This document shows positions 17,571 through 26,928 of a DNA stretch of 45,590 nucleotides, piece by piece (positions within the stretch are counted from its first letter, which is position 1; each line of letters starts with the position of its first letter). Location: the NCBI GenBank assembly GCA_944363555.1, contig CALVUL010000034.1, positions 1-45,590 of the forward strand. The letters are read 5' to 3'. Origin of the DNA: an uncultured Clostridia bacterium. Lineage in GTDB: Bacteria > Bacillota > Clostridia > Christensenellales > Borkfalkiaceae. Below the pieces are notes generated by a model. It made no database searches and was not told where the DNA came from. It worked only from the letters and a program-made list of their open reading frames with translations. The position numbers and the translations under genes are program-made.

Positions 17571-17617
17571 AAAACAGCGCGGGCGGCAAAAATTGCCGCC
17601 CGCGCTGTTTTTTTACC
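17571..17617. terminator. Bidirectional terminator between the SLOG gene and aroQ
   Basis: A 19-bp stem (17571-17589 with 17593-17611), core CAGCGCGGGCGGCAA, loop AAA, flanked by A5 and T7, so it ends the plus-strand SLOG transcript and the minus-strand aromatic operon. Confidence 0.93.
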
Positions 17618-18041
17618 TGTTTTCCGCCAAAAAATCCATCGCCTCGGCATAACCAGCAAAGCCCTTGCCGCAGATCGTCTTTTTCGCAACGAGGGAAATA
17701 TACGAAACGCGGCGGAATTCCTCCCGCGCGTAAATATCCGTCAGATGCACTTCCGCGGCGGGGATGCTCACCGCCTTCAACGCGTCCAAGATCGCCACGG
17801 AAGTATGCGTATACGCCCCCGCGTTGATGACGATGCCGTCGTATTTCCGATAGGCTTTCTGAATGGCGGTAACGATCGCGCCTTCGCCGTTCGACTGAAA
17901 GCACTTTACCTTGTATCCCTTTTTCTTCGCATGCGCGCGGATATAGCGGACGAGCGCGGCGTAATCCTCGCTGCCGTAAAGGTTCTTTTCCCGAATGCCG
18001 AGCATGTTGAGATTGACGCCGTTGATCACGAGAATTTTCAT
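17613..18041 (-). CDS. aroQ: 3-dehydroquinate dehydratase, type II
   Basis: 142 aa, typical of the dodecameric type II enzyme that removes water from 3-dehydroquinate. Motifs: ILVINGVNLNMLGIRE with the catalytic loop and Tyr in NLYGS, FQSNGEGAIV, INAGAYTHTSVAI (the catalytic His region is EVHLTD with His102-like). It is the last gene of the aromatic operon; its ATG overlaps the aroE-aroK stop (ATGA, 18038-18041) and the bidirectional terminator follows directly. Confidence 0.96.
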   Translation of the reverse strand: MKILVINGVNLNMLGIREKNLYGSEDYAALVRYIRAHAKKKGYKVKCFQSNGEGAIVTAIQKAYRKYDGIVINAGAYTHTSVAILDALKAVSIPAAEVHLTDIYAREEFRRVSYISLVAKKTICGKGFAGYAEAMDFLAENR

Positions 18042-19270
18042 ACTTCCTCCTTAGAAAACGCGTTTAAGACGGCGTTTACCGCGCTTTGCGGATCTTTATC
18101 GTTTTCGATGACGAAATCCGCCGCGCCCTCGTACAGCGCGCGCCGCTCTTCGTAAAGTTTTTCCACCGTTTCGCGGTCTTTGGAAAGCGGCCTGCCTTTG
18201 AGCGCGAGCAGGCTTGTCGGGCGGCGGAGATAAAAAATCACGCCGTTGCGTTTCAGCGCGGAAACGTTTCTTCCGTCCTTTACCGCGCCGCCGCCGGTGG
18301 AAACGACCGCGCCGCTCTTCTTCGCCAGATCTTCGACGGCCGCGCGTTCCGCCGCGCGGAAGGCTTCTTCCCCGCCGCGCGCGAAGATCTCCTCGATTTC
18401 CCTGCCCGCCGCCTTTACGATCTCCTCGTCGCTGTCGAAAAACGGGCGGCCGAGCGCGGCGGCGACCGCTTTGCCGACGGCGCTCTTTCCCGCCCCGGGC
18501 ATCCCGATCAAGACGATGTTTTCGCATTCCCTTTGCAACTTCGCCGCAACGCGGAGGACGGCTTCTTCGCCTATCCTGCCGCCGCCGAAGAGTTCCCGCG
18601 CCCGCGCCGCCTGCGCCACGAGCATATAAAGCCCGCCCGCCGCCGGCACGCCAAGAGACTGCGCCTGCAAAACGAAATTCGTGCGCAGGGGATGATAGAC
18701 GACGTCCAGCGCGCCCGAAAGATCGGGAAACCGCGATAAATCGACGATCGTTTCCCCGTCGTTCGGGTACATCCCCGCGGGCGTGGTGTTGACGACGATC
18801 TCCGTTTCCGTTCTGTCGTAAACGTTGTTGTAATTGCATCCGCCGGAGCGCGAAACCTTGTAAACGCTCTTCGCGCCCGCGTCCAGACACACCGTTTCCG
18901 CCGTGCGGCTCGTGCCGCCCGTGCCCAGAATACAAACGTTTTTGCCCTTGAAATCCACGCCCGCTTTCGCCGCGAGGGCGGAAAAACCGTAATAATCGGT
19001 ATTGTCTCCGTAAAGGACGCCGCCGCGGTTCACCACGGTGTTGATCGCGCCGATCCTCCGCGCCAGCGGGGAAACCTCGTCCACGAGCGACATCGCGGTT
19101 CTTTTATAGGGAATGGTTACGTTGATCCCGCGGAATTCCCGCTTTGCAAAAAAGGTTTTCAACGCTTCGGGCGCGATCTCTTTCAGGGCGTAATCCCCGC
19201 CGCCGAAGGCTTTGTGAATGGCTGCGGAATAACTATGCCCCAACTTTTCGCCGATCAGATATTCTTTCAT
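18038..19270 (-). CDS. aroE-aroK: Fused shikimate dehydrogenase - shikimate kinase
   Basis: 410 aa from the ATG at 19270, which overlaps the pheA stop by one base (TGATG); a TTG one codon earlier is possible. Residues 1-~245 are shikimate dehydrogenase: GHSYSAAIH (shikimate-binding Ser), NVTIPYK (catalytic Lys56), NTDYYG (Asp92), LGTGGTSR (NADP-binding, 115-122). Residues ~250-410 are shikimate kinase: GMPGAGKS P-loop (256-263), DSD (279-281), TGGG (325-328), GRPLS lid (359-363). The fusion performs two consecutive steps, dehydroshikimate to shikimate to shikimate-3-phosphate. Both active sites look intact. Separate genes are the norm, though fusions in this pathway recur in many lineages. 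Confidence 0.95.
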   Translation of the reverse strand: MKEYLIGEKLGHSYSAAIHKAFGGGDYALKEIAPEALKTFFAKREFRGINVTIPYKRTAMSLVDEVSPLARRIGAINTVVNRGGVLYGDNTDYYGFSALAAKAGVDFKGKNVCILGTGGTSRTAETVCLDAGAKSVYKVSRSGGCNYNNVYDRTETEIVVNTTPAGMYPNDGETIVDLSRFPDLSGALDVVYHPLRTNFVLQAQSLGVPAAGGLYMLVAQAARARELFGGGRIGEEAVLRVAAKLQRECENIVLIGMPGAGKSAVGKAVAAALGRPFFDSDEEIVKAAGREIEEIFARGGEEAFRAAERAAVEDLAKKSGAVVSTGGGAVKDGRNVSALKRNGVIFYLRRPTSLLALKGRPLSKDRETVEKLYEERRALYEGAADFVIENDKDPQSAVNAVLNAFSKEEV

Positions 19271-20409
19271 CAAAGTTCCGAATACGCGCCGAGGAACACG
19301 AACCGCTCCAGAGAAGAGGAAAGTTCGCTCATCAGTTTGAGCACGCCTTCCTTATGGATCTCCGCCTCGATATCGAAATAGAACATGAACTCGAAATCGC
19401 TGCCGACGATGGGGCGGGATTCCAACTTGGACAAGTTCAGCCCCAGAGCGTTGAATTTGCTCATCACGCTGTACAGCGCGCCGGGGCGGTGAGGCAGGGT
19501 GAGCATCAGACTGATCTTGTTCGCGCCGGCGTAGATCTCCGGTTCCTTGGAAATGCAGATAAAGCGCGTATAGTTGTTTTCGCTGTTCTGCACCTTGCGG
19601 GAAAGCACTTTCAGATTGTAAAGTTCCGCGCAGTTGGCGGAAGAGATTGCAGCCACGTCCCTTCTGTCGCTCTCGGCTACGATCTTCGCCGCCGCGGCGG
19701 TGTTTTCGCACACGTTGATCTTCACGTCGGGATGCGCCTTCAAATAGCCGCTGCACTGTCCCAGCGCCTGTTCGTGGGAATAAATTTCCCTGATCGCGCC
19801 CTCCTGCACCCCTTCCTTTGCCAGCAGCACGTGCGATATGTGCAGTTTCACCGTGCGCACGATATAGAAATTGTGATTGAGCATCAGATCGTAAACGCCG
19901 TTGACCGACCCGTTGGAGGAATTTTCGATGGGCAGAACGCCGTATTTGCAAAGCCCCTTTTCCACGGCGGAAAACACCCCGTCCCAATGGCGGAAATAGA
20001 GGATGTTCGGCAGTTTGAACAACTTTTCCGCAGCGAGGGAGGAATACGCCCCCTCCACCCCCTGACACGCCACCGTGGCGCGTTCGGGGAAATCGGCTTT
20101 CTCCCCCGCGAGGGCGGCGCGCAGGGCGTCTTCCAGCGCGGAGGAAGAGGTGAGCGCGCTCTGATAGGAGCGGCTCAGTTCGAACATCGTGGAAAAGAGC
20201 ACGCGGGAATACGATTCGTATTTTTCCGGCACGCGGTCGGCGACTTTGTTGAGCACTTCCCGCTCCCGCGCGGGGCTGTACACGGGGATGTTGTTTTTCT
20301 TTTTGACGGCGGTAACTTCCTCGACCGCGTCCATCCGTTCGGCGAAGAGATCGGCGATCTTTTCGTCGATGCCGTCGATCTTTTCGCGTACTGTTTTCAA
20401 TTCTTCCAT
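19270..20409 (-). CDS. pheA: Bifunctional chorismate mutase / prephenate dehydratase
   Basis: 379 aa. Residues 1-~90 form an AroQ-type chorismate mutase (VREKIDGIDEKIADLFAERM, VKKKNNIPVYSPAREREVL). Residues ~110-285 are the prephenate dehydratase (ACQGVEGAYSSLAAEKLF, VLPIENSSNGSV, and YTRFICIS with the catalytic TRF). Residues ~298-375 are an ACT domain (LPHRPGALYSVMSKF, LSKLESRPIVGSDFEFMFYFD), the usual phenylalanine sensor with its ESRP motif. So the enzyme makes phenylpyruvate and should be feedback inhibited by Phe. GAGAGG precedes the ATG, 21 nt after aroC. Confidence 0.96.
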   Translation of the reverse strand: MEELKTVREKIDGIDEKIADLFAERMDAVEEVTAVKKKNNIPVYSPAREREVLNKVADRVPEKYESYSRVLFSTMFELSRSYQSALTSSSALEDALRAALAGEKADFPERATVACQGVEGAYSSLAAEKLFKLPNILYFRHWDGVFSAVEKGLCKYGVLPIENSSNGSVNGVYDLMLNHNFYIVRTVKLHISHVLLAKEGVQEGAIREIYSHEQALGQCSGYLKAHPDVKINVCENTAAAAKIVAESDRRDVAAISSANCAELYNLKVLSRKVQNSENNYTRFICISKEPEIYAGANKISLMLTLPHRPGALYSVMSKFNALGLNLSKLESRPIVGSDFEFMFYFDIEAEIHKEGVLKLMSELSSSLERFVFLGAYSEL

Positions 20410-20430: not shown

Positions 20431-21522
20431 TTATTTGGCGTTCAGCGCGTCCTTCTTCGCGCCGAGCAGCAGATCGAGCGCCGTCAGGCAAGCCACGGCC
20501 TCCACCACGGGCACGGCGCGCACGACGATGCACGGATCGTGCCTGCCGCGAATGAGCAGGCTGCAATTTTCCTCTTTTTCCAGATCGACGGTGTCCTGCG
20601 GGCGGAAGATCGACGCCGTCGGTTTGAACGCCGCGCGGAACACCACGGGCATGCCGTTCGCAATACCGCCGTTCACGCCCCCCGCGTTGTTGGTCTTGGT
20701 TTTTACCGCGCCGTTGTCCCAATAAAAGGCGTCGTTGTTTTCCGAACCGCGCAGCGCCGCCCCCGCGAACCCGCTGCCGAACTCCACCCCCTTGACGGCG
20801 GGGATGCCGAACAGGTTCGCCGCAAAGCGGTTTTCCACCCCGTCGAACATCGGTTCGCCCAGCCCCGCGGGGAGATCGATCACGGCGCATTCCACCACGC
20901 CGCCCACGCTGTCGCATTCGCTTTTCGCGGATAAAATTTCCGCCTTCATCCTTTCCGCCGCTTCGGCGGAAAGGGCGGGAAAATCCGTCGGATAAACGAA
21001 ATCTTCTCTCCGCACCCGTACGGGATCGAAGGCGGCGTCCTTCACTTTGCCGATCTGCAGGGCGTGCGCGCCGACAAAAACGCCGAAATTTTCCAGAATC
21101 TGCTTGGCAACGCCGCCCGCCGCGCAGAGCGCCGCCGTCAGCCTGCCGGAAAAATGCCCGCCGCCGCGGTAATCCCGCCAGCCGTATTTCGCATAAGACG
21201 TATAATCGGCGTGGGACGGGCGGGGGCGCTTATCGATCTCCGCATAATCGGAAGAGCGCACGTCCCCGTTTTTAATGAACAGCGCGAGGGGCGCGCCGCA
21301 GGTCTTCCCTTCAAACAGCCCGCTGACGATCTCGATCCTGTCTTCTTCCCTGCGGGCGGTGGAAAGGCCGTCCTTCGCCCGCCGCCTGTCGGCGAACGCC
21401 TGCAATTGAGCCGTATCGACGGCGTAGCCGGCGGGCAGCCCGTCGACCACCGCGCCGATCGCCGCGGAATGCGACTGCCCGAAAACGCTCACTTTCAGAT
21501 TTTTACCGAAATCAGAGGACAT
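20431..21522 (-). CDS. aroC: Chorismate synthase
   Basis: 363 aa from ATG 21522, which has GGGAGGG upstream; the frame extends 11 codons more, but SSDFGKNLKVSVFGQSHS is the true family N-terminus. It converts EPSP to chorismate with reduced FMN. Signatures: GQSHSAAIGAVVDGLPAG, RPRPSHADYTSYAKYGWRDYRGGGHFSGRLTA and FGIPAVKGVEFGSGF. The start overlaps the aroA stop by 11 bp. In the family consensus GGGRSSARET; here GGGHFSGRLT, a variant I associate with clostridial enzymes. Confidence 0.96.
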   Translation of the reverse strand: MSSDFGKNLKVSVFGQSHSAAIGAVVDGLPAGYAVDTAQLQAFADRRRAKDGLSTARREEDRIEIVSGLFEGKTCGAPLALFIKNGDVRSSDYAEIDKRPRPSHADYTSYAKYGWRDYRGGGHFSGRLTAALCAAGGVAKQILENFGVFVGAHALQIGKVKDAAFDPVRVRREDFVYPTDFPALSAEAAERMKAEILSAKSECDSVGGVVECAVIDLPAGLGEPMFDGVENRFAANLFGIPAVKGVEFGSGFAGAALRGSENNDAFYWDNGAVKTKTNNAGGVNGGIANGMPVVFRAAFKPTASIFRPQDTVDLEKEENCSLLIRGRHDPCIVVRAVPVVEAVACLTALDLLLGAKKDALNAK

Positions 21523-22711
21523 CGAACTTCCCTCCCAGTCTTTTGAATTCTTCAAAGAACGCGGGGTAGGATTTTTCCACCGCCTCCGCGCCGAGAATCT
21601 CCACCGCGCCCGCCGCTTTCGTGGCGGCGATCGCCATGCTCATCACGATCCTGTGGTCGTTGAACCCGTCGACCCTGCCGCCCGTCAGCCCGCCCGTGCC
21701 GTCGATGATCAGCCCGTCGTCCGTTTCCCGCACCCTGCCGCCGAGGGCGTTCAGATTCGCCGCCACGGCGTGCAGCCGGTCGCATTCTTTCAGCCTGAGC
21801 CGCGCGGCGTTTTTGATGACCGTGCGCCCCGTGGCGTACGCCGCCGCCACGCTGACGGCGGGCACCAGATCGGGAATGTTCCCCGCGTCGATCTCCGCGC
21901 CGCTGCTCCTGATCGACAGGAGCACGTCTTTGATAGCCGCGTCGCCTTGGGCGGAATTTTTATCCACCCCCCGCACCCGCACGAGGTTGCCGATGACGCT
22001 CGCCGTAATGAAAAACGCCGCGTTGGACCAGTCGCCTTCCACGGCGGCGTATGCGGGGGGCGCGTACGTCTGCCCGCCGCGCACGAAATACCCGCTTTCC
22101 CGCTTTTCGACTTCGACGCCGCTCTTTTTTAGGGCGCCGAGGGTCATTTCCACGTACGCCCCGCTTTCCAGCGGCGTCGTCAAAACGATCTCGCTGTCCC
22201 CTTGAAGCAGCGGCAGGGCGAAAAGCAGCCCCGTTATGTACTGTGAACTGACGTCCCCCCTGATGCGGAACGCGCCGCTTTGCAGTTTTCCGGAAATCGT
22301 CAGGGGCAGTTTGTCCGCGTCCGCCTTGACGCCCTTCAAAACGGAAAGCAGTTCGCCCACGGGGCGTTGGGGCAGCCTGCCCGACCCGATAAACGTCGCC
22401 TCGATGCCGAGCGCCGCCGCCACCGGCAGAAAAAAGCGCAGCGTGCTGCCGCTCTCCCCGCAGTCGAACACGGCTTTTTCCGCGCCCGCCGCGGGGGTGA
22501 TCTCGTATCCGCCCTCCGTTTTCCGCACGCCCCCGCCCGCCGCTTCGATGCAGCGCAGCGTCGCCTCGATGTCTTTCGAAAGGGCAGACAGCCCGACGAC
22601 GCTCTTTTCCTTTGCCAGCGCGGCGCACAGCAGCGCGCGGTGCGCCGCCGATTTGGAAGGCGGCGCGACGACGTCCCCGTCCAGCGTGCAGGGATAGATC
22701 TTTACGTTCAT
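21512..22711 (-). CDS. aroA: EPSP synthase (3-phosphoshikimate 1-carboxyvinyltransferase)
   Basis: 399 aa, a little shorter than the common ~430 aa. It joins PEP to shikimate-3-phosphate. Motifs: PPSKSAAHRALLCAALA (catalytic Lys and Ser), FDCGESGSTLRFFLPVAAALG (PEP-binding loop), GRLPQRP, DVSSQYITGLLFALPLL, and ECDRLHAVAANLNALG. The usual GNAGT loop reads CGESGSTLRF, a class II-like form with Ser following, which can be less sensitive to inhibitors acting at the PEP site, but this cannot be judged by sequence alone. It overlaps aroB by 4 bp (ATGA). Confidence 0.95.
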   Translation of the reverse strand: MNVKIYPCTLDGDVVAPPSKSAAHRALLCAALAKEKSVVGLSALSKDIEATLRCIEAAGGGVRKTEGGYEITPAAGAEKAVFDCGESGSTLRFFLPVAAALGIEATFIGSGRLPQRPVGELLSVLKGVKADADKLPLTISGKLQSGAFRIRGDVSSQYITGLLFALPLLQGDSEIVLTTPLESGAYVEMTLGALKKSGVEVEKRESGYFVRGGQTYAPPAYAAVEGDWSNAAFFITASVIGNLVRVRGVDKNSAQGDAAIKDVLLSIRSSGAEIDAGNIPDLVPAVSVAAAYATGRTVIKNAARLRLKECDRLHAVAANLNALGGRVRETDDGLIIDGTGGLTGGRVDGFNDHRIVMSMAIAATKAAGAVEILGAEAVEKSYPAFFEEFKRLGGKFDVL

Positions 22712-23757
22712 AACTCGGATAAAACCTCCTTTACCGTTTCCATCGGCGTCGGGCAGATTTCCGCTCTGCCGATCCTTTTCGGCAGGATCAAATTGATTTT
22801 ATCCCCCGCGCGCTTTTTATCGTGCGCCATAGCGGGGAACAGTTCCGCCCCCGTAAACGGGCATTCCGCCGGCAGGCGGTAGCGCGCCAGCGCGTTTTTC
22901 AGCCGCACGGTTATATCTTTTTCTTCCGAAAAACCGATTTTTTCGGCATACCGGCAGGCAAAAAGCATGCCCGCCGCCACCCCTTCGCCGTGGCTTACGG
23001 TAAAACCGCTCAGTTTTTCGATCGCGTGCCCGAAGGTGTGCCCGAAATTGAGGAGCATGCGCTCGCCCGTGTCGAACTCGTCCTTTTTCACGACCGCGGC
23101 CTTGGCGCGCACGCTCGTTTCCACGACGGTTTCCGTATCGGCGCGCCCTTCTTCCAGCGCGGCGAAAAACGCCGCGTTGCCGATGACGCCGTATTTGATC
23201 GCCTCCGCCATACCCTCGGAAAACAGTTTTTCCGGCAGCGCGGAAAGGACGGCTGTATCGCACAGCACCAGCGCGGGCTGGTGAAACGCCCCCGCGAGGT
23301 TTTTGCCCGCCGGCAGATCCACCCCCGTTTTGCCGCCGACGGAGGAATCGACCGCCGCGAGCAGCGTGGTGGGGATCTGCACGAATTTCACGCCGCGAAG
23401 GTAGATTGCCGCGGCAAACCCGCACACGTCCCCCACGACGCCGCCGCCGAGGGCGACGAGCACGTCCGAACGGGTGATCTCCGCGGCGCACAGCGTCGAC
23501 AAAATCTTTTCGATTGTGGCGAGATTTTTATGCTCCTCCCCGTGCTCGAAAGCGAGGGTATACGGTTGAAACCCCGCGGCGAGGAGGGAGGCGCGCACCG
23601 CGCCGCCGTAGAGCGGCAGCACGACGTCGTCCGAAACGATGAACGCTTTCCTTGCCGCGACGCCCGCCGCCCGCATATACGCCCCCGCGTCTTTTAAGAT
23701 GTTTTCGCCGGCGACGACCTCGTAAGGCGCCGCCGTTTCAATCGGGATTCTTTTCAT
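22708..23757 (-). CDS. aroB: 3-dehydroquinate synthase
   Basis: 349 aa. NAD- and metal-dependent cyclisation of DAHP to 3-dehydroquinate. Visible: VALGGGVVGDVCGFAAAIYLRG, QIPTTLLAAVDSSVGGKTGVDLPAGKNLAGAFHQP (signature with metal-site Glu/His region) and LNFGHTFGHAIEKLSGFTVSHGEGVAAGM (metal-binding His residues). AGGA precedes the ATG, which lies 20 bp inside the end of tyrA. Confidence 0.97.
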   Translation of the reverse strand: MKRIPIETAAPYEVVAGENILKDAGAYMRAAGVAARKAFIVSDDVVLPLYGGAVRASLLAAGFQPYTLAFEHGEEHKNLATIEKILSTLCAAEITRSDVLVALGGGVVGDVCGFAAAIYLRGVKFVQIPTTLLAAVDSSVGGKTGVDLPAGKNLAGAFHQPALVLCDTAVLSALPEKLFSEGMAEAIKYGVIGNAAFFAALEEGRADTETVVETSVRAKAAVVKKDEFDTGERMLLNFGHTFGHAIEKLSGFTVSHGEGVAAGMLFACRYAEKIGFSEEKDITVRLKNALARYRLPAECPFTGAELFPAMAHDKKRAGDKINLILPKRIGRAEICPTPMETVKEVLSEL

Positions 23758-24586
23758 ATTTCCTGTCGGCGAGGGCTTTCCGCTCCCGCCCCTCTTTCAG
23801 AAGCTGTTTCATCGTTTCGGCGTCGTTTTCGTAAAGGGCGCACTTGTATTCGCCCAGCCGCTCGATGAGCCCGTCGATCTCCGTCAAAAGATTTTCCTTG
23901 TTGTCGAAAAAAAGTTCCGTCCACATCTCCTCGTTGAGTTTGGCGACCCGCGTCATATCGCGGAAACTGCCGGCGGAAAAGCCTTTGTGGCTGAGCGCCG
24001 ACGGGCTCTTTACGTACGCGCTCGACAAAACGTGCGCCAGCTGGGAGGTCAAGGCGATCATCTTGTCGTGCTCTTCGGGCGTGGAATACTGAATGCGCGT
24101 AAAACCGATGGAAACGAACAGTTCCTTCACCGTTTCGAGGGCCGCCGCGGTAACCGTTTTATCGGGGACCACGATCATGGACGCGTTTTTGAAAAGCGCC
24201 TCCCGCGCGTGATCGAAACCGGAAAACTCCACCCCCGCCATGGGATGCCCGCCGATGAAGGTAAACCCCTTTTCCCGCGCGAGGGGGAAGAGCGCGTCGC
24301 ACACCACGCGTTTCACCCCCGCCGTATCGATGACGATGCACTTTTTCGGGATCTTATCCGCATGCGTTTCGACGTATTCGACGACCGCCGCCGGATAGAG
24401 GGCGACGATCAGCATGTCGAGGGAGGAAAGATCCTCCATCCTGCCGTCGACCGCGCCGACGAGCAGGGCTTTTTTCAGGCTCTCTTCGTTGACGTCCGCA
24501 CCGTAAACGGCGTGGGGCGTATTCTTTTTAACGGCTTTGGCGATCGAGCCCCCGATCAGCCCCAAGCCGACGATGCCGATATTCAT
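23738..24586 (-). CDS. tyrA: Prephenate dehydrogenase
   Basis: 282 aa from ATG 24586, with AAGGGGG 5 nt upstream; the long open frame upstream is antisense overlap. It oxidatively decarboxylates prephenate to 4-hydroxyphenylpyruvate, the tyrosine branch. NIGIVGLGLIGGSIAKA is the NAD-binding motif, FIGGHPMAGVEFSGFDHAR contains the catalytic His, and LTSQLAHVLSSAYV is the helical dimerisation domain. No ACT domain is present, so tyrosine control is more likely at the attenuator than in this protein. It overlaps aroB by 20 bp. Confidence 0.95.
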   Translation of the reverse strand: MNIGIVGLGLIGGSIAKAVKKNTPHAVYGADVNEESLKKALLVGAVDGRMEDLSSLDMLIVALYPAAVVEYVETHADKIPKKCIVIDTAGVKRVVCDALFPLAREKGFTFIGGHPMAGVEFSGFDHAREALFKNASMIVVPDKTVTAAALETVKELFVSIGFTRIQYSTPEEHDKMIALTSQLAHVLSSAYVKSPSALSHKGFSAGSFRDMTRVAKLNEEMWTELFFDNKENLLTEIDGLIERLGEYKCALYENDAETMKQLLKEGRERKALADRKYEKNPD

Positions 24587-24597
24587 CGTTTCCCCCT

Positions 24598-25602
24598 TTA
24601 CTTCGCCGCGTAGGGAAGTATGGCGTTGACGTTCGCCGCAAGTTCCTTGAAGGCTTCCGGCGTGATCGACTGCTGCCCGTCGCACAGCGCGTGCTGCGGA
24701 TCGTTGTGCACTTCGATGATCAGCCCGTCCGCGCCGGCTGCCGCCGCCGCGAGAGACATGGGTTTGACGTATTTCGCGTACCCCGTGGCGTGGCTGGGAT
24801 CGATGACGACGGGAAGATGGGTCATCTGTTTGAGCACGGGGATCGCGCACAGATCGAGGGTGTTTCTCGTGCTCGTTTCAAACGTTCTGATGCCGCGCTC
24901 GCACAAGATGACATCCGTATTGCCGCCCGCCATGATGTATTCCGCGCTCATCACCAGTTCCTGCAGCGTGCTGCTCATGCCGCGTTTCAACAAAATCGGC
25001 TTTTTGATCTTGCCGAGTTCCTTTAAGAGTTCGAAGTTCTGCATGTTGCGCGCGCCCACCTGCAGAACGTCCACCTCCTCGAAGAGGGGAAGTTGGGAAA
25101 TATCCATGATCTCCGTTACAATCGGCAGCCCCGTTTCCCTTTTCGCTTCGAGAAGCAGGCGGATGCCTTCCCCCCTGAGCCCTTGGAAGGCGTAGGGGGA
25201 GGTCCTCGGTTTGAAGGCGCCGCCCCGCAGCAGTTTCGCTCCCGCCGCCTTCACGGCTTTGGCGATGCCGATGATCTGCTCTTCGCTCTCCACCGAACAG
25301 GGCCCCGCGATGAACTGGAAATTGCCGCCGCCGATCTTCGCGCCGGAAACGTTTACCACCGTATCCTGCGGGTGGAATTTGCGGTTGGCGTTTTTGAAAG
25401 GTTCCTGTATGCGCTTTACGTCCTCCACCACGTCGAGGGAGCGGATCAGATCGATGTCGATCTTGCTCGTATCGCCGATGAGCCCCAGCACCGTGGTGTT
25501 TTCGCCTTTGCTGACGTTCACCTTCACGCCCTTGTCGGTAAGCCAGTCGATGAGGTTGTCGAGCTGCGCCTTGTCGTAATCCTTTTTGGGAATGATGATC
25601 AT
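24598..25602 (-). CDS. aroF: 3-deoxy-7-phosphoheptulonate (DAHP) synthase, type I-beta with N-terminal regulatory domain
   Basis: 334 aa. First step: condenses PEP and erythrose-4-phosphate. Residues 1-~70 form a ferredoxin-like/ACT-like regulatory domain; the catalytic barrel has IAGPCSVES, LRGGAFKPRTSPYAFQGLRGEG, ILLKRGMSSTLQE, VILCERGIRTFE and VVIDPSHATG, the metal and substrate sites. The I-beta subgroup of Firmicutes carries such an N-terminal extension for feedback control. AAGGAG is 8 nt before the ATG. It is the first structural gene after the leader peptide and attenuator (25624-25776). Confidence 0.96.
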   Translation of the reverse strand: MIIIPKKDYDKAQLDNLIDWLTDKGVKVNVSKGENTTVLGLIGDTSKIDIDLIRSLDVVEDVKRIQEPFKNANRKFHPQDTVVNVSGAKIGGGNFQFIAGPCSVESEEQIIGIAKAVKAAGAKLLRGGAFKPRTSPYAFQGLRGEGIRLLLEAKRETGLPIVTEIMDISQLPLFEEVDVLQVGARNMQNFELLKELGKIKKPILLKRGMSSTLQELVMSAEYIMAGGNTDVILCERGIRTFETSTRNTLDLCAIPVLKQMTHLPVVIDPSHATGYAKYVKPMSLAAAAAGADGLIIEVHNDPQHALCDGQQSITPEAFKELAANVNAILPYAAK

Positions 25603-25623: not shown

Positions 25624-25651
25624 AAAAAACGCGCCGCATTGCTGCGGCGCG
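25624..25651 (-). terminator. Attenuator terminator of the aromatic operon
   Basis: On the minus strand CGCGCCGCA - GCAA - TGCGGCGCG forms a 9-bp stem with a GNRA tetraloop and is followed by six T. It lies 21 nt upstream of the DAHP synthase ATG and 59 nt past the leader peptide stop, so the whole operon depends on passing it. Confidence 0.92.
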
Positions 25652-25701
25652 CACGTTTTTTCGCTTTCCTTTGAAATTGTTCCGAAAAAAAACCACAGCA
25701 A
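25639..25701 (-). promoter_or_regulatory. Antiterminator fold of the aromatic operon leader
   Basis: Minus-strand TTGCTGTGG (25701-25693), starting 9 nt after the leader stop, can pair with CCGCAGCAA (25647-25639), which is the end of the terminator's 5' arm plus its loop; one of the nine pairs is U-G. Inside it, TTTTTTTTCG can pair with CGAAAAAA. The two folds are mutually exclusive, as required for attenuation. Confidence 0.75.
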
Positions 25702-25710
25702 AAAATTCAC

Positions 25711-25776
25711 TTACTTTTGATAAAAGTACGCGTAAAAGTAAAAGTTAAAATAGTTTTTGCCGTTGAATTTCCGCAT
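25711..25776 (-). CDS. Leader peptide rich in Phe and Tyr (attenuation peptide)
   Basis: A 21-codon frame ATG (25776) to TAA (25711), with AAAGAGG 6 nt upstream. Ten of 21 residues are aromatic: five Phe and five Tyr, the core reading NYFNFYFYAYFY. It begins about 17 nt after the predicted transcript start. Its translation should report charged tRNA-Phe and tRNA-Tyr: stalling on the aromatic codons leaves the antiterminator arm free, whereas reaching the stop codon places the ribosome over that arm (9-18 nt downstream) and lets the terminator form. The same logic is known for pheL and trpL. The mechanism is inferred; the sequence elements are all visible. Confidence 0.9.
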   Translation of the reverse strand: MRKFNGKNYFNFYFYAYFYQK

Positions 25777-25799
25777 AGTCTGCCTCTTTTACGTTATCC

Positions 25800-25828
25800 A
25801 TAATAAAACATCTGCCGCGATTTGTCAA
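25800..25828 (-). promoter_or_regulatory. Promoter of the aromatic operon
   Basis: Minus-strand TTGACA (25828-25823), 17 bp, TATTAT (25805-25800), start near 25793. The -35 box overlaps the recF stop codon, so the promoter is embedded at the end of recF. Confidence 0.88.
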
Positions 25829-26928
25829 TCGCTTGAAGGATCTTTTTTCAATTTTCCCGCGGCGACGGTCATTTTTTTGAAGGGCGCGCCCCCGAATACC
25901 CGTTTATCCGCGCTCGTGCAGGTGATGACGGTCTGCATCCGCTCCGCCCGCCCGATGAGCCGCCGCTGGCGCACTTTGTCGAGTTCGCTTAAAACGTCGT
26001 CCAAAACGAGCACGGGATATTCCCCCGCCCGCGCGCGGAAGATCTCCGTTTCCGCGAGTTTGAGCGACAGCGCCACCGTGCGCTGCTGCCCCTGCGAGCC
26101 GTAAATCCGCACGTCTTCGCCGTCCAAAAGCAGTTTCATGTCGTCGCGGTGCGGGCCCACCGTGGTGAATCCCAGCCGTATATCCTTTTCGTATGCGGTT
26201 TTCAGATCTTCCTTCACCGCGTAAGCGATCTCCTCCTCCCCGCCGTAATAACCGCTTTCCGAGGCGATTTTCAGCGTTTCCTTCCCGCCCGAAAGGCAGG
26301 CGTGCGCCTCCTCCGCCAAAGGGCCCAAGGTTTTTAAAAACTCGTTGCGCATCAGAATGATCTTCGCCGCGTAGCGGGCAAATTCCGCGTCCCAGACGGG
26401 AAGGGTATCCAGCACGATCGCGCGGTCTTTTTCCTTTAAAAGGTTGTTCCTTTGCTGCAAAATCTTGTTGTAGCGATTGAGGGCGTGCAGATAGGTCCTG
26501 CTCATCTGCGAAAGGGAGATGTTCATGAACCGCCGCCTGTCCTCCGGCGATTCCTTGACGAGTTTTAATTCGTTCGGATTGAAAAACACGCTGTTCACGT
26601 TGCCGAGCAGTTCCCCGATGCGCAAAATCGGCGTGCCGTTGATCTTCACGTTTTTTTTATCGGCGCAGATCTCCATTTCGATGGAAATTTCCCCGTAGCG
26701 GCTCTCCGCGCGGCAGGAAAGCGCGGCGCCCTCCCGCCCCCGCATCACCAGCTGATGATCTTTCGTGGCGCGCGGAGAATACCCCGTGCACAGCAGAAAC
26801 ACCGCCTCCGCCGCGTTGGTCTTTCCCTGCGCGTTGGCGCCCGCGAGCACGTTGAGCCCGTCGACGAACTCGAACGTTTCTTCCGCATAATTTCTGAAAT
26901 TTTTTAACCTTAAAGACCTGATCAGCAT
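25825..26928 (-). CDS. recF: DNA replication and repair protein RecF
   Basis: 367 aa SMC-like ATPase that loads RecA at gaps. Walker A is GANAQGKTNAAEAV (residues ~31-44), the central region contains LSQMSRTYLHALNRYNKILQQRNNLL, the signature-like region is YGSQGQQRTVALSLKLAE, and Walker B is PVLVLDDVLSELD. The ATG at 26928 has no ribosome site (ACGATATTT precedes it). It is divergent from dnaA with 190 nt between the starts, whereas in most bacteria the order is dnaA-dnaN-recF on one strand. Its 3' end carries the aromatic operon's -35 box. Confidence 0.95.
   Translation of the reverse strand: MLIRSLRLKNFRNYAEETFEFVDGLNVLAGANAQGKTNAAEAVFLLCTGYSPRATKDHQLVMRGREGAALSCRAESRYGEISIEMEICADKKNVKINGTPILRIGELLGNVNSVFFNPNELKLVKESPEDRRRFMNISLSQMSRTYLHALNRYNKILQQRNNLLKEKDRAIVLDTLPVWDAEFARYAAKIILMRNEFLKTLGPLAEEAHACLSGGKETLKIASESGYYGGEEEIAYAVKEDLKTAYEKDIRLGFTTVGPHRDDMKLLLDGEDVRIYGSQGQQRTVALSLKLAETEIFRARAGEYPVLVLDDVLSELDKVRQRRLIGRAERMQTVITCTSADKRVFGGAPFKKMTVAAGKLKKDPSSD

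Follow-up and report, generated by a model that had tools for sequence, protein, structure and literature searches.

Known attenuators and T-boxes at amino acid operons

In textbook accounts, leader-peptide attenuation belongs to Proteobacteria and T-box regulation to Firmicutes. In the pheL system of enterobacteria (Phe_leader, RF01859), a Phe-rich leader peptide and alternative antiterminator and terminator structures control a gene of the Phe pathway. The leader analyzed here lies in a stretch of 45,590 nucleotides of an uncultured Clostridia bacterium, hereafter the window (contig C34 of assembly G000, which is 94.8% complete), and shares with pheL a Phe-containing leader peptide, an alternative antiterminator and terminator, and probable control of the Phe pathway. 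However, pheL senses Phe and controls pheA alone, while the window leader contains Phe and Tyr codons in equal number and precedes a whole shikimate, Phe and Tyr operon, and the two differ in lineage and sequence. Against Phe_leader the window scores 23.9 bits (E 0.083), the cut-off of the family being 55; an Rfam search at low threshold returned sub-cut-off matches only (e.g., this one and Thr_leader, 18.2 bits), and no Rfam family matched the leader in the window or in 20 related loci.

Firmicutes usually rely on T-boxes (PMC5794164, PMC2965389). Those of aromatic operons act on the same pathway and also sense tRNA charging, but they bind uncharged tRNA directly, without translation of a leader, and none was found at the window operon. 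Leader peptides of Firmicutes were considered noteworthy by Naville and Gautheret (PMC2965389), whose case is the His leader of bacilli hisS/hisZ, and a Leu-rich attenuator belongs to the ilv-leu operon of S. aureus (PMC5794164); both are Firmicutes leader peptides too, but the amino acids and genes concerned are different, and the organisms are Bacilli, not Clostridia. Fig. 6b of Stav et al. 2019 (PMC6429828), whose genomes include Clostridium novyi, presents a pair of candidate regulatory uORFs containing Phe and Tyr at genes of shikimate metabolism; their likeness to the window leader lies in these residues and in the pathway. The uORFC-13-1 motif (PMC8632094), located upstream of aroF in Acholeplasma, contains Phe codon(s) and a terminator; its 24 examples come from Acholeplasma and environmental sequences only, and its U run codes for at least one Phe, whereas the window leader has a 10-codon Phe/Tyr run. 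The device is known in kind and has been glimpsed at the aromatic pathway before; the literature searched, which included few subscription journals, described neither the full three-way pairing nor the coupling of a whole operon to both Phe and Tyr, nor such breadth in Clostridia.

Leader region and operon organization

The leader and its promoter sit between recF (25825-26928) and aroF on the minus strand (Table 1). Ten of the 21 codons of the leader ORF are aromatic (five Phe and five Tyr), and no Trp codon is present. The promoter, the ribosome binding site, this reading frame and the GCAA-loop terminator followed by six U (a T run reaching 25624) were found base for base as described in the initial annotation. 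The same holds for its 9-nt arm complementary to the 5' arm and loop of the terminator, TTGCTGTGG (25701-25693), which forms eight Watson-Crick pairs and one G-U pair with CCGCAGCAA (25647-25639), and for the distance of 9 nt between the stop codon (25713-25711) and that arm. The leader ORF is not due to chance: when the leader region was dinucleotide-shuffled 5000 times, no shuffle yielded a short ORF preceded by a Shine-Dalgarno (SD) sequence with eight aromatic codons in 10, the leader ORF alone among the SD-preceded short ORFs of the window has at least five Phe/Tyr/Trp in 10 codons, and a pattern made for its codon run had an in-frame match nowhere else in the genome.

Table 1. Leader elements and genes of the aromatic operon, in window coordinates.
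Feature	Position	Strand	Remarks
Sigma-70-type promoter, near-consensus, TTGACA-17-TATTAT	25800..25828	-	11/12 consensus matches; overlaps recF end
Promoter hexamers	-35 TTGACA, 25828-25823; -10 TATTAT, 25805-25800	-	17-nt spacer
Leader ORF ribosome binding site, AGAGG	25783..25787	-
Leader peptide ORF, MRKFNGKNYFNFYFYAYFYQK*	25711..25776	-	ATG at 25776; stop codon 25713-25711
Segment 1, ACGGCAAAAA	25754..25763	-	codons 5-8; partner of segment 2 (predicted protector 1:2 helix)
Segment 2, TTTTTGCTGTGG	25693..25704	-	antiterminator 5' strand 25701-25693; segment 1 partner 25704-25695
Segment 3, CCGCAGCAA	25639..25647	-	5' arm of the terminator with its loop; pairs with segment 2
Segment 4, TGCGGCGCG	25630..25638	-	terminator 3' arm
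Intrinsic terminator hairpin and T run	25624..25652	-	GC-rich perfect 10-bp stem 25652-25629, GCAA loop
aroF, DAHP synthase	24598..25602	-	first structural gene; TIGR01361, NF006421
tyrA, prephenate dehydrogenase	23738..24586	-	Pfam, NCBIfam
aroB, 3-dehydroquinate synthase	22708..23757	-	Pfam, NCBIfam
aroA, EPSP synthase	21512..22711	-	Pfam, NCBIfam
aroC, chorismate synthase	20431..21522	-	Pfam, NCBIfam; start inferred
pheA, chorismate mutase-prephenate dehydratase	19270..20409	-	Pfam, NCBIfam
aroE-aroK fusion, shikimate dehydrogenase and shikimate kinase	18038..19270	-	Pfam, NCBIfam
aroQ, type II 3-dehydroquinate dehydratase	17613..18041	-	Pfam, NCBIfam

The eight genes had been taken for a complete aromatic amino acid operon, which is correct for Phe and Tyr and incorrect for Trp: the operon contains no trp genes, neither trpE nor trpA was found in the 94.8%-complete assembly, and trpA was found in none of the five members of the genus. 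Chorismate appears to supply Phe and Tyr, and not Trp synthesized de novo; since the genome is without trpE and trpA, Phe and Tyr are the main amino acid products of the pathway. The Phe and Tyr codons of the leader and its lack of Trp codons match this output of the operon and the absence of trpE and trpA. The missing trp genes are consistent with the lack of Trp codons and do not explain it, because the leaders of relatives carrying trpA, e.g., G091 and G110, are also devoid of Trp codons. A leader variant with Trp codons (WYW; MKNSNCTANKIWYWYYFAMNDSKV...) occurs in a Clostridia MAG (locus L064, upstream of 1853); its Trp codons were considered as a sign of Trp sensing, which was rejected, the downstream stretch comprising aroF, tyrA, aroA and aroC and no trp gene. 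Separately, AroE and AroK of the window form one fused protein (Pfam Shikimate_dh_N at residues 6-80 and SKI at 259-404).

Alternative pairings of the leader RNA

Folding of the leader predicted that codons 5-8, ACGGCAAAAA (25763-25754), pair with UUUUUGCUGU (25704-25695), which includes most of the antiterminator arm. This segment 1, overlooked in the initial annotation, would complete the classical set of 1:2, 2:3 and 3:4 pairings. The same arrangement is found in many relatives in other letters, a peptide mark such as FAAEY (GCAGCNGAA) directly before the aromatic run being complementary to an TTTTGCTGC arm after it. In a cross-partner test, where the own partner of each of 76 non-redundant leaders was ranked among the partners of all leaders, the own arm fell into the best 5% for 36% of the leaders in the case of 2:3 (p ~2e-16) and the own partner for 42% in the case of 1:2 (p ~7e-22), the p-values being nominal since the leaders are related, while shared motifs render the test conservative. 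The ranks of the window leader itself were moderate, 12% for 2:3 and 7% for 1:2. Against nucleotide shuffles, 44 of 82 leaders were in about the best 5% for 2:3; for 1:2 the count was 40 of 83, versus 9 for the reversed-partner control. The cross-partner results support both of the predicted alternative pairings.

Other measures were less telling. Single-sequence folding energies did not discriminate (z = -1.5 and z = +0.26), and in many leaders from other genera of the same family a clear 1:2 helix was not seen. Alignment of the leaders, proposed earlier as a check on aromatic codons and compensatory changes, revealed conservation of the former; within the genus the key arms are nearly invariant across the five members and display no covariation.

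In a partition-function model with segment 3 not yet transcribed, the 1:2 helix comprised about 9.5 bp without a ribosome and 0.0 bp with a ribosome positioned at Phe4, Tyr9 or Phe10, and stall sites beyond Phe10 re-exposed segment 1. Most of 19 other leaders modelled gave the same 1:2 pattern; the helix was weak in the congener G004 (1.2 bp without a ribosome). In the equilibrium model with all segments transcribed, 2:3 is stronger than 1:2 once segment 3 has emerged, and the terminator prevails at every ribosome position; consequently, the switch must be kinetic. A kinetic decision is likewise accepted for trp attenuation.

Proposed mechanism

The most plausible reading, to which we assign a probability of roughly 0.9, is that the region is a ribosome-mediated (leader-peptide) transcription attenuator, through which the charging of tRNA-Phe and tRNA-Tyr would set transcription of the eight-gene aromatic operon. 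The sequence itself shows the elements, the conservation of these elements and the potential for alternative pairing: an ORF with its own ribosome binding site between the promoter and the first gene, enrichment in codons of the end products, a terminator (3:4), a mutually exclusive 2:3 pairing and a predicted 1:2 protector, weak in G004, whose 5' strand a ribosome waiting on the control codons would mask. The starvation response, the stall sites and the kinetics are what we infer for the switch. RNA polymerase would initiate at about 25793, with a ribosome translating the leader behind it. Under a shortage of Phe or Tyr, the ribosome would wait at Phe4, Tyr9 or Phe10 and mask segment 1, so that segment 2, being free, could pair with segment 3 ahead of the synthesis of segment 4, and the polymerase would continue into aroF. 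With an ample supply of both amino acids, the ribosome would pass through and leave segment 1 exposed to re-pair with segment 2; segment 3 would then pair with segment 4, and transcription would end near 25624. The first Tyr codon and the second Phe codon are adjacent and directly follow segment 1; due to this position, a shortage of either amino acid would stall the ribosome at the critical place.

One part of the earlier scheme has to be revised, namely that a ribosome finishing the peptide would cover the 9-nt arm. A +15 footprint from the stop codon takes in about one base, or at most a few bases, at the start of the arm (25716 - 15 = 25701), and in our model termination would be better explained by re-pairing of the 1:2 protector than by a terminating ribosome on the arm.

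Occurrence of the leader in related genomes

Leader, arm and terminator alike are kept in all five species of the genus examined; the leader of G003 has no start codon, since the contig starts inside it. In the congeners, TTGACA and a -10-like hexamer are conserved at the end of recF (L083-L085), and GAGG is the equivalent of AGAGG in L083 and L084. The hairpin with its T run is common to all five congeners and occurs in most relatives beyond the genus. This bears on the possibility of translational attenuation, where a stalled ribosome would free the aroF ribosome binding site from sequestration by the hairpin. Although no more than about 13 nt separate the end of the hairpin from the AAGGAG of aroF, a GC-rich perfect stem with a T run, retained so widely, is that of an intrinsic terminator, and the arms of the hairpin have no complementarity to AAGGAG; we consider such a mechanism very improbable.

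Named genomes and relatives of the window's genome supplied the DAHP synthase loci, and a short ORF with at least six Phe/Tyr/Trp in 10 codons not more than 600 nt upstream of aroF was counted as a leader. Such an ORF precedes aroF at 60 of 79 named loci from other genomes, at 31 of 42 loci from the same family and at 29 of 48 from the same order, compared with about 0.6% of shuffled 300-nt regions; as the loci were chosen by similarity to the aroF of the window and a few genomes are present in both the named and the relative sets, these counts are not unbiased frequencies for Clostridia. Angelakisella massiliensis, Yanshouia hominis and Anaerotignum neopropionicum are among the cultured relatives with a leader of this sort. 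A strict test, which required an SD sequence and six aromatic codons in 10, recognized 61 of 109 loci, versus 0.15% of shuffles and 0 of 109 antisense regions. In most loci tyrA follows aroF.

The location of recF just upstream could suggest that the hairpin is a recF or constitutive terminator, which there would insulate recF, and that the short ORF encodes a small protein with a function of its own, apart from attenuation. However, there is a promoter between recF and the leader, and recF is found upstream in the window's genus only, yet elsewhere leaders precede aroF in many contexts; hence, conservation of the leader is not a by-product of synteny. Moreover, the peptides of the relatives have in common their aromatic content and the position of the run (starting at codon 9 or 10 in 36 of 76 leaders) and not their sequence, which fits codon sensing and not protein function. 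There is very little to recommend this explanation.

Least credible is control of the operon by a riboswitch that binds a ligand or tRNA, be it a T-box or another, the aromatic ORF being incidental: the genome does contain five T-boxes, one of them before pheS, and some relatives use a T-box at aroF, but neither a T-box nor any other RNA regulator was detected by Rfam at cut-off in the window or the 20 related loci, the transcript of about 190 nt before aroF consists mostly of the leader ORF and the terminator, and the aromatic ORF is met repeatedly with independent sequences. The best reading is, as originally proposed, attenuation of the whole operon by Phe and Tyr. Both conditions named in the initial annotation as refuting it turned out in its favour, the homologous leaders having kept the aromatic-rich ORF and the potential for antiterminator pairing, and the window being free of T-boxes.

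The assumption that such attenuation is unusual in Firmicutes did not hold here. In the sampled Clostridia, an aroF of this kind is usually preceded by a leader peptide, and T-boxes are in the minority. On balance, we favour the broader view that these leaders make up a widespread, old class of Phe/Tyr attenuators, the default for aroF-led operons across much of Clostridia, with like leaders before close aroF relatives in MAGs of Spirochaetes, Planctomycetes and Lentisphaerae, an 'AAEY'-like segment 1 peptide mark before the aromatic run in many of them, and a T-box swapped in for some lineages.

Two further groups of loci were observed. Aromatic-rich leaders stand before close relatives of aroF in MAGs labelled Planctomycetes, Victivallales, Treponemataceae and Lentisphaerae (L022, L031, L052, L062, L010), which reflects either horizontal transfer together with the operon or mis-binned contigs. 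At L012, L019, L094, L102 and L109, a leader of the SYFYFYFN type is situated about 400-600 nt before aroF, and another element may lie between them.

T-boxes in the genome and its relatives

T-box RF00230 had no match in the window; the five T-boxes of the genome are on other contigs and precede a TrpB-like gene, ilvN, pheS, ileS and thrS. The one before pheS is located on contig C56 (L114). The genome apparently senses Phe via a T-box at pheS and via the leader peptide at aroF. The T-box on contig C104 (L112) precedes the gene of a TrpB-like PLP enzyme, though the assembly lacks trpE and trpA; this enzyme may serve indole salvage. Among the relatives, G141 has a T-box of 108.8 bits (L168, 242-496) immediately upstream of aroF, in the usual place of the leader, one sensing system being swapped there for another. 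The genome G114, which is without the leader, has a T-box about 1.4 kb upstream of aroF on the same strand.

Taken together, in the Clostridia considered here the leader peptide is the common solution for the aromatic amino acids, of a kind barely recorded in the group, and the analysis provides an annotation for a leader absent from Rfam. The T-box of pheS and the leader of aroF form a natural pair for comparing RNA sensors of one tRNA, and G141 represents a clear case of one type of sensor replacing the other at one gene.
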